A DNA stretch of 64,000 nucleotides from Thermoplasmata archaeon. GTDB taxonomy: Archaea > Thermoplasmatota > Thermoplasmata > Lutacidiplasmatales > UBA184. The notes below the pieces were generated by a model that saw only the letters and a program-made list of their open reading frames with translations, had not been told where the DNA came from and did no database searches. Of this stretch, positions 1,605 to 3,637 are shown piece by piece. The translations under genes were made by a program, and so were the position numbers. Position 1 is the stretch's first letter; every line of letters starts with the position of its first letter. The DNA is taken from assembly GCA_027365105.1 (NCBI GenBank), contig DAHXNZ010000001.1:1-64000 (forward strand), in the 5' to 3' direction.

Positions 1605-1707
1605 TAGCGGGGCATGGATTTGAACCATGGATCTACGGGTTATGAGCCCGTCGGGATTTCAGGACGGCTGCCATCGGCGGCCGTTTTCCTGACTACCCTA
1701 CCCCGCT
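1605..1707 (-). tRNA. Initiator tRNA-Met(CAT) with a predicted ~28-nt D-loop intron
   Basis: Minus strand AGCGGGGTAGGGTAGTCAGG...AAATCCCGACGGGCTCATAACCCGTAGATCCATGGTTCAAATCCATGCCCCGCTA; acceptor AGCGGGG/CCCCGCT, anticodon loop CTCATAA, T arm intact; insert interrupts D loop. Confidence 0.88.
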
Positions 1708-1831: not shown

Positions 1832-3637
1832 ATGTCGGACCACGCGCCCGGGCTGGGACTACCGGTTCCGGCCACCCTCCACGACTACGGAGCGATCGGA
1901 AACCTCCACAGCGTGGCGCTCGTCTCGCGCCACGGTTCGATCGACTGGCTCTGCTGGCCCCGGTTCGCCTCGCCGAGCCTGCTCGCTCGGATCCTGGACG
2001 CCGAGATGGGAGGTCATCTCGCGGTCCGACCGGAGGAGGCCTCCCGCAGCCGTCAGCGCTACCTCCCGTCGACCAACGTGCTCGAGACCGTTTTCGAGCT
2101 CCCCGATGGGCGGAGCCTGACCGTGACCGACTTCATGCCGGTCGAAGTGGGCGTTGCGGAGCCCTCCAGCCCCCGGTTGCTCCGGGCGCTGGAAGCGACC
2201 CGGGGAAAGGTGACGGTCGGGGCCGAGCTCCGGCCCCGGTTCAACTACGGACAGGAGGGTCCCGACTGGGACGGGAACGACGACCGCTGGATCGGACGAT
2301 CGTCCGGCGGCTCGGTTTGGGTCGCGGCCCCGGGTCCCCTGGAGCCGGTCGGCGAGGGGCTCGGGGGACGGTGGACCGTTCGCCCTGGAACCCGTCAATT
2401 CCTGCAGTTCGGCTGGGATCGCCCTCCGGCGGAGCTCGAGCCCCCGGAGCGGCTCCTGAACCGGACCATCGGCTACTGGAGGAGCTGGGTCGGCGCCGGG
2501 CGGACGCGCAGCTCCCGCCAACGGAGCTCCGAACCTCCGCTGATCGAGCGCTCGGAACTCGTGCTGAAGCTTCTCTCCCACGCGACCTCGGGAGCTTTCG
2601 TGGCGGCCCCGACAACCTCGCTCCCGGAGTGGCCGGGGGGAACCCGCAACTGGGATTACCGCTACGTGTGGATACGGGACGCCGCGTTCTCGGCCCAGAC
2701 GCTCCTGTCCCTCGGTCATATCGAGGAGGCTCATGCCTACCTTCGATGGATCACCGCGCGCTTGCGGGAGAGCGGGCCCCGGCCGCTCCGGGTCCTCTAC
2801 GCCGCCCACGGAGATCCCGACCTCTCGGAGCGCACGCTCCCCCACCTCCGGGGGTTCCTAGATTCGCGCCCGGTCCGGGTCGGGAACGGGGCCGCCGACC
2901 AGTTCCAACTCGACATCTTCGGCGAGCTCCTGGATGCGGCCGCTCTGCTCGCCCAGGTCGATCCCGATGCCCGGGGAGAGGTCTGGCCCGAACTCGCCCC
3001 GGCGGCCGAGATCATCGCCGCGCAGTGGGCCGCCCCGGATCGGAGCATCTGGGAGATCCGGGGCCCTCCCGATCACTATGTCCACTCCAAGGTCATGGCG
3101 TGGGTTGGACTCGATCGGGCCGCCCGTCTCTGCCGCCTGAACCATGATCCGGCCGGGGCCGAACGGTGGCTGCGCGCGGCGGAGGAGATCCGGCGCGAAG
3201 TGCTCTCCCGCGGGGTCGATCCCGAGAGCGGGGTCCTCCGGCAGGCGTTCGGCAACGCGAGGATTGATGCGGCCAACCTCCGGATCCCGATGGTGGGCTT
3301 CCTCCCGTTCGACGATCCCCGCATCCGGGCGACGATCGAACGGGTCGAGCGTGACCTTTCCGAGGGCCCCTTCGTGTACCGATATCGAGGCGCGGACGGC
3401 CTCGATGGGCCGGAAGGATCGTTCCTGCCCTGCGGGTTCTGGCTGGTCCTCTGTCTCGCCCGGATCGGCGAGAAGGCGCGGGCGCACGAGCGCCTGGCGG
3501 GGCTCGCCGAAGCGGCCGGCCCGCTCGGACTGTGGCCGGAGGAATTTGACCCGAAGGGGCGGATCCCCCTGGGTAACTTTCCTCAGGCGTTCTCCCATGT
3601 GGCGTACCTCAGGGCTCTTGAAGCGCTGCGCGACTGA
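1832..3637 (+). CDS. Glycoside hydrolase family 15 protein (glucoamylase/trehalase-like)
   Basis: 601 aa; N-term LHDYGAIGNLHSVALVSRHGSIDWLCWPRFASPSLLARILD, GGTRNWDYRYVWIRDAAFS, typical of GH15. Confidence 0.9.
   Translation: MSDHAPGLGLPVPATLHDYGAIGNLHSVALVSRHGSIDWLCWPRFASPSLLARILDAEMGGHLAVRPEEASRSRQRYLPSTNVLETVFELPDGRSLTVTDFMPVEVGVAEPSSPRLLRALEATRGKVTVGAELRPRFNYGQEGPDWDGNDDRWIGRSSGGSVWVAAPGPLEPVGEGLGGRWTVRPGTRQFLQFGWDRPPAELEPPERLLNRTIGYWRSWVGAGRTRSSRQRSSEPPLIERSELVLKLLSHATSGAFVAAPTTSLPEWPGGTRNWDYRYVWIRDAAFSAQTLLSLGHIEEAHAYLRWITARLRESGPRPLRVLYAAHGDPDLSERTLPHLRGFLDSRPVRVGNGAADQFQLDIFGELLDAAALLAQVDPDARGEVWPELAPAAEIIAAQWAAPDRSIWEIRGPPDHYVHSKVMAWVGLDRAARLCRLNHDPAGAERWLRAAEEIRREVLSRGVDPESGVLRQAFGNARIDAANLRIPMVGFLPFDDPRIRATIERVERDLSEGPFVYRYRGADGLDGPEGSFLPCGFWLVLCLARIGEKARAHERLAGLAEAAGPLGLWPEEFDPKGRIPLGNFPQAFSHVAYLRALEALRD

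Follow-up and report, generated by a model that had tools for sequence, protein, structure and literature searches.

Evidence for a relaxed D-loop intron in the initiator tRNA gene of a Thermoplasmata archaeon with a single, fused-chain splicing endonuclease

The initiator tRNA gene and its surroundings

The window, i.e. the whole stretch of 64,000 nucleotides analyzed here, belongs to the draft genome of an uncultured soil-type archaeon (G000; 97.5% complete, 201 contigs). Close to its first base lies an interrupted gene for initiator tRNA-Met (iMet) between an integrase-like gene and a trehalase-like gene. The following features were assigned:

1605–1707 (−): initiator tRNA-Met (CAT) gene, precursor including A73; A1-U72, anticodon CAT, T arm and acceptor stem intact
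1686–1707 (−): exon 1, tRNA positions 1–20a, AGCGGGGTAGGGTAGTCAGGAA; from the sequence and a check of the product
1658–1685 (−): 28-nt intron AACGGCCGCCGATGGCAGCCGTCCTGAA between positions 20a and 21; position conserved in relatives, absent from related genera
1605–1657 (−): exon 2, positions 21–73; from the sequence and a check of the product
1732–1736 (−): TATA-like element ATATA, 25–29 nt upstream of the tRNA, recognized by eye
181–1560 (−): integrase-like gene, 459 aa, downstream of iMet on the same strand, 44 nt past its 3′ end
1832–3637 (+): GH15 trehalase-like gene on the other side of iMet

The minus strand of 1605–1707 reads AGCGGGG TA GGGTAGTCAGG-AAA-ACGGC...GCCGT-CCTG-AAA-TCCC G ACGGG CTCATAA CCCGT AGATC CATGG TTCAAAT CCATG CCCCGCT A. 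Initiator marks are the A1-U72 pair, a CGGG/CCCG anticodon stem with three G-C pairs, the loop CTCATAA and the discriminator A73. The precursor has a length of 102 nt plus A73, the insert of 28 nt and the spliced product of 74 nt plus A73. Predicted cuts behind the second A in both AAA triplets would yield this 74-nt body with the D loop AGTCAGGAAA; at the sequence level, removal of the insert from an otherwise complete tRNA gene leaves a normal tRNA. A canonical intron at 37/38, one base 3′ of the anticodon, was also considered and rejected, the loop CTCATAA being uninterrupted. Neither ARAGORN nor the Rfam tRNA model RF00005 at gathering threshold detected the iMet gene, which is the expected effect of the D-loop insert. 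In relatives, A/T-rich pentamers resembling ATATA were seen by eye at equal distance upstream of iMet.

The identification as initiator tRNA-Met by the first-pass annotation is upheld by A1-U72, the anticodon stem, the CAT anticodon and the single copy. A second intact iMet gene, which would have spoken against that annotation, was looked for, and G000 was found to contain one iMet gene only. Since G000, at 97.5% completeness, has no other iMet, the interrupted gene has to be functional.

The integrase-like protein matched PHROG 1 (4e-7) and by eye carries the tyrosine-integrase motif R...YxxR...Y (motif from PMC8371274); a Pfam search of the protein gave no domain. Homologous integrase DNA was found beside iMet at three further loci (L040, L042, L120) and a fragment of it at a fourth (L083). 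In the relative G013 the integrase region is absent; its DNA resembles the window only from 1602 onward, where the tRNA ends. Judged from this sequence context, the 3′ end of iMet likely harbors an integrated pNOB8-type element, which is truncated by the start of the contig. No further copy of the tRNA 3′ end, as would mark an att site, was found in G000; the far edge of the element is probably missing, as the contig begins only at window base 1. The D-loop intron would be no bar to insertion of the element, as expected if the att site lies in the 3′ part of the gene.

Intron fold, covariation and distribution

The insert and its exon borders contain a core of the bulge-helix-bulge (BHB) type, consisting of a 3-nt bulge, a 4-bp exon-intron helix CAGG/CCTG and a second cut site. 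Its elements are located as follows, with frequencies referring to distinct introns:

1688–1691 (−): exon strand CAGG of the central helix (positions 17, 17a, 18, 19), pairing with CCTG in 65 of 75
1660–1663 (−): intron strand CCTG of the central helix, supported by covariation and a cross-family compensatory change
1685–1687 (−): 5′ bulge AAA (72 of 75), with the predicted cut after the second A
1657–1659 (−): AAA at the second, 3′ splice site (71 of 75), an internal loop and not a true bulge; U16·U22 mismatch
1664–1684 (−): intron hairpin in a 9-bp register, with one mismatch in the host copy; supported by covariation, seven pairs with two-sided changes

The strict hBHBh′ motif is absent, as the exon-side neighbor is U16·U22, followed by a 4 × 4 internal loop before the D stem. 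Because the exon-side helix is broken in this way, the 3′ site lies within an internal loop while the hBH side is intact, making the precursor a relaxed bulge-helix-loop (BHL) substrate. Folding of the precursor gave z = −5.3 against shuffled sequences, none of 200 shuffles being as good, and a pair probability of at least 0.999 for the central helix. The first intron pair was split thermodynamically between A24-U44 (0.41) and A21-U44 (0.57), the shifted pair being slightly preferred in the unconstrained fold.

An alignment of 43 distinct intron sequences of equal length was used for comparison. Under the proposed structure 95.5% of the cells are paired, whereas slid registers pair in just 26–50% of them; two-sided changes occur in 7 of 13 pairs, and none of 500 shuffles attained any of the five measures. 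Column 15 has A or G opposite U, and G opposite C. Thereby, the comparative data settle for the A24-U44 register and not for the thermodynamic alternative. The four central pairs are invariant in the 43-sequence set and hence uninformative there; across families the central helix shows a compensatory swap between CAGG/CCTG and TAGG/CCTA.

At all 24 genus loci read, the intron occupies the identical site. Among 250 Thermoplasmata genomes sampled, the D-loop interruption of iMet was found in 49 and an uninterrupted gene in 98, the remainder fitting neither search pattern. In the GTDB contig collection, 83 stretches carry the interruption, most of them under the title Thermoplasmata and one under Candidatus Lutacidiplasma silvani, which makes membership of the host in the Lutacidiplasmatales group most likely. 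Within the host family (f1) the intron is present in genera g1, g25 and g29 and absent from g24, g26, g27 and g28, and similar introns have a patchy occurrence in five other Thermoplasmata families (f13, f17, f18, f20, f23). In family f13, two genomes carry the intron and two lack it, and their exon letters are identical, so that the intronless gene equals the spliced product: both intronless genomes (G079, G094) encode GTAGCCAGGAAATCCCATCGGG, an exact match to the product expected from the intron-bearing G071. At the exon junction, the intronless genera of f1 mostly have CAGG-TCA-TCCC compared to CAGG-AA/A-TCCC in the intron-bearing ones; judged from these sequences, the bulge requirement may hold the exon bases beside the cut as A.

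The first-pass annotation had also proposed a D-loop intron of about 28 nt in a BHB register, with both cuts placed behind the second A of AAA. The insert measures 28 nt and sits at a conserved site, covariation over the 43 introns supports the register despite the split first pair, and the product of the predicted cuts equals the intronless f13 gene. The label "relaxed" given to the motif likewise fits the U16·U22 mismatch, which leaves the 3′ site in an internal loop.

Some further interruptions were observed. Two loci of the thermoplasmatotal family f23 (L080, L085) have an iMet with an apparent D-loop intron plus a T-loop insertion (TTCAAAGGACCGG...), and the T loop of the iMet at L114 is apparently interrupted too. 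Outside Thermoplasmatota, D-loop iMet insertions of different sequence occur at or near the same place in Lokiarchaeota (L070, L093) and DPANN (L084, L112, L118). Archaeal-type iMet genes on contigs titled Acidobacteriaceae, Proteobacteria or bacterium (L071, L128, L137) are probable binning contamination.

Splicing enzymes and other tRNA introns of the host

The host genome contains one gene for the splicing endonuclease EndA (G000:C66, 354 aa) and one for the ligase RtcB. The EndA chain has two PF01974 and two PF02778 stretches, its best structure matches are the enzymes of M. kandleri, A. fulgidus and M. jannaschii, and the catalytic Tyr, His and Lys are retained in the second repeat. Two fused repeats in one chain, Y/H/K in the second and the lack of a second EndA gene are the marks of the α′2 type, and on this sequence basis we infer that the host enzyme acts as an α′2 homodimer. 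An ε2 or (αβ)2 endonuclease was rejected, as the sole EndA gene encodes the fused two-repeat chain. All 27 high-quality genomes in the set of relatives, which includes the host, encode EndA.

The loop tied to broad specificity (CSL/ASL), an insertion of 11–18 residues with a conserved Lys in the catalytic unit, was not found in 28 EndA homologues compared with three reference enzymes. The spacing between YGS and LELS is short in the host enzyme and equal to that of M. jannaschii, A. fulgidus and M. kandleri, with 28 relatives agreeing. This region lies close to the start of the aligned part of the A. pernix chain (residue 47), just past the loop residue K44; the presumed position of the CSL was taken from PMC6379350, PMC12397907 and these alignments.

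At least five other host tRNAs have T-loop insertions of roughly 25–35 nt:

G000 C123:8465–8540 (L179): tRNA-Gly(TCC), GGG-TTCG-AAA...CGAA-TTT-CCC, by eye a strict BHB
G000 C168:59502–59600 (L178): tRNA-Glu(CTC), looks relaxed
G000 C157:24327–24420 (L181): tRNA-Arg(TCT), looks relaxed
G000 C110:28163–28281 (L183): tRNA-Ser(CGA), looks relaxed
G000 C121:1290–1409 (L182): tRNA-Asn(GTT), looks relaxed

These five insertions suggest that insert removal is routine in the host. Visual inspection also pointed to canonical 37/38 introns in three tRNAs, namely a CAT tRNA, Tyr(GTA) and Leu(TAA). In an Arg-GCG tRNA (G000 C146:24485–24600, L180), GCCCGTG stands about 40 nt upstream of the D arm, and an intron near positions 8–12 is possible.

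Non-canonical BHB introns of the 20/21 region are mainly described from Thermoproteales/Crenarchaeota and Thaumarchaeota (PMC4090602, PMC8450103), and a search of the open-access literature found no tRNA introns described for Lutacidiplasmatales. The rarity outside Thermoproteota assumed at first agrees with the older literature; on the other hand, such introns are common in the host genome, and several Thermoplasmata families have them as well.

Interpretation and alternatives

Taken together, the insert is very probably a genuine non-canonical archaeal tRNA intron, spliced by an α′2 EndA and RtcB; we infer cleavage, the exact bonds as placed by the motif, the dimeric state and ligation. Transcription of the iMet gene would yield a precursor of 102 nt plus A73, in which CCTG of the intron would pair with the exon CAGG, leaving the 5′ site in a 3-nt bulge and the 3′ site in an internal loop. 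The sole EndA, as an α′2 homodimer, would cut each AAA behind its second A, and RtcB would join the exon ends 20a and 21 to the normal D loop AGUCAGGAAA.

A functional tRNA that keeps the insert for good, as part of a larger D loop, would be compatible with a sequence-only record, and the insert is indeed stable and hairpin-shaped. However, G18 and G19 are needed free for the contact between D loop and T loop, and an unremoved CCTG would block them. Also, conservation of the AAA bulge letters, covariation of the intron helix and the exact spliced form encoded in related genomes speak for removal, and we regard retention as very improbable. Still less credit is given to a pseudogene accompanied by another, functional iMet gene. 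Such a gene could be absent from an assembly of 201 contigs, but the search of G000 gave no second copy, members of the genus have an intron-bearing and no intronless copy, and the acceptor, anticodon and T arms are perfectly conserved.

The intron might also be carried or maintained by the adjoining integrative element instead of being an inherited host intron. Intron gain through attP is a published model for Caldiarchaeum tRNA-Thr (PMC3293823), likewise an intron-bearing tRNA beside a pNOB8-like integrase, and the integrase, with its R...YxxR...Y motif and its place shortly behind the 3′ end of the co-oriented tRNA gene, has the pNOB8-type layout. Unlike in that proposal, the host-type intron is common to genomes without the element: most members of the genus have the intron without an adjoining integrase, e.g. 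G013 (L037, L077). The intron thus does not track the element, and its maintenance by the element is largely refuted; we consider an element-borne intron improbable, though less remote than the two readings above.

An inherited, spliced intron resembles the known 20/21-region BHB introns in being a short D-loop intron with a bulge, a 4-bp exon/intron helix and a normal tRNA product. It differs from them in its occurrence in Thermoplasmatota, the fused α′2 EndA without CSL and the open 3′ site. The host EndA shares the fused two-repeat chain with Y/H/K in the second repeat with the α′2 enzymes of Archaeoglobus fulgidus, Thermoplasma and Ferroplasma (PMC6379350, PMC8707768), but has 354 aa compared to 288–305 aa in these; those of A. 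fulgidus and T. acidophilum are listed as narrow (PMC6379350). Korarchaeum was named in 2014 as the only archaeon with an α2 EndA and non-canonical introns (PMC4033280). K. cryptofilum thus also combines a homodimeric-type enzyme with non-canonical tRNA introns, but its EndA has the specific loop of (αβ)2 enzymes, whereas the host EndA has no insertion between YGS and LELS.

According to PMC6379350, relaxed motifs are removed efficiently by (αβ)2 and ε2 enzymes only, and under that account the open 3′ site without a flanking exon helix and the loopless EndA would count against efficient cutting. On the other hand, the A. fulgidus α′2 enzyme does excise 37/38 introns of the bulge-helix-loop kind when these are part of full-length tRNA (PMC6379350), and homodimers can cut BHL-like motifs (PMC8707768). 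An iMet intron together with an α′2 EndA is therefore unexpected under one account in the literature and acceptable under another. The first-pass annotation expected a broad-specificity enzyme to be required for a relaxed BHB; in its simple form this did not hold, the sole endonuclease being a loopless α′2 type. It is possible, rather than probable, that either EndA of this lineage holds relaxed sites in another way or the accepted rule of enzyme-intron co-evolution is too strict.

The iMet intron belongs to a known class of archaeal introns, now in a new lineage, and its interest lies in the combination of a relaxed D-loop intron, a loopless α′2 enzyme and Thermoplasmatota. The D-loop intron accounts for iMet genes missed by gene finders in such genomes, and its precise presence or absence inside f13 and f1 provides a clean system for studying how an intron is gained or lost at a single site. 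In whole genera the initiator tRNA, an essential molecule, would be usable only after an endonuclease of a type classed as narrow has acted on a relaxed intron, and the rule relating endonuclease architecture to intron position thereby becomes directly testable.
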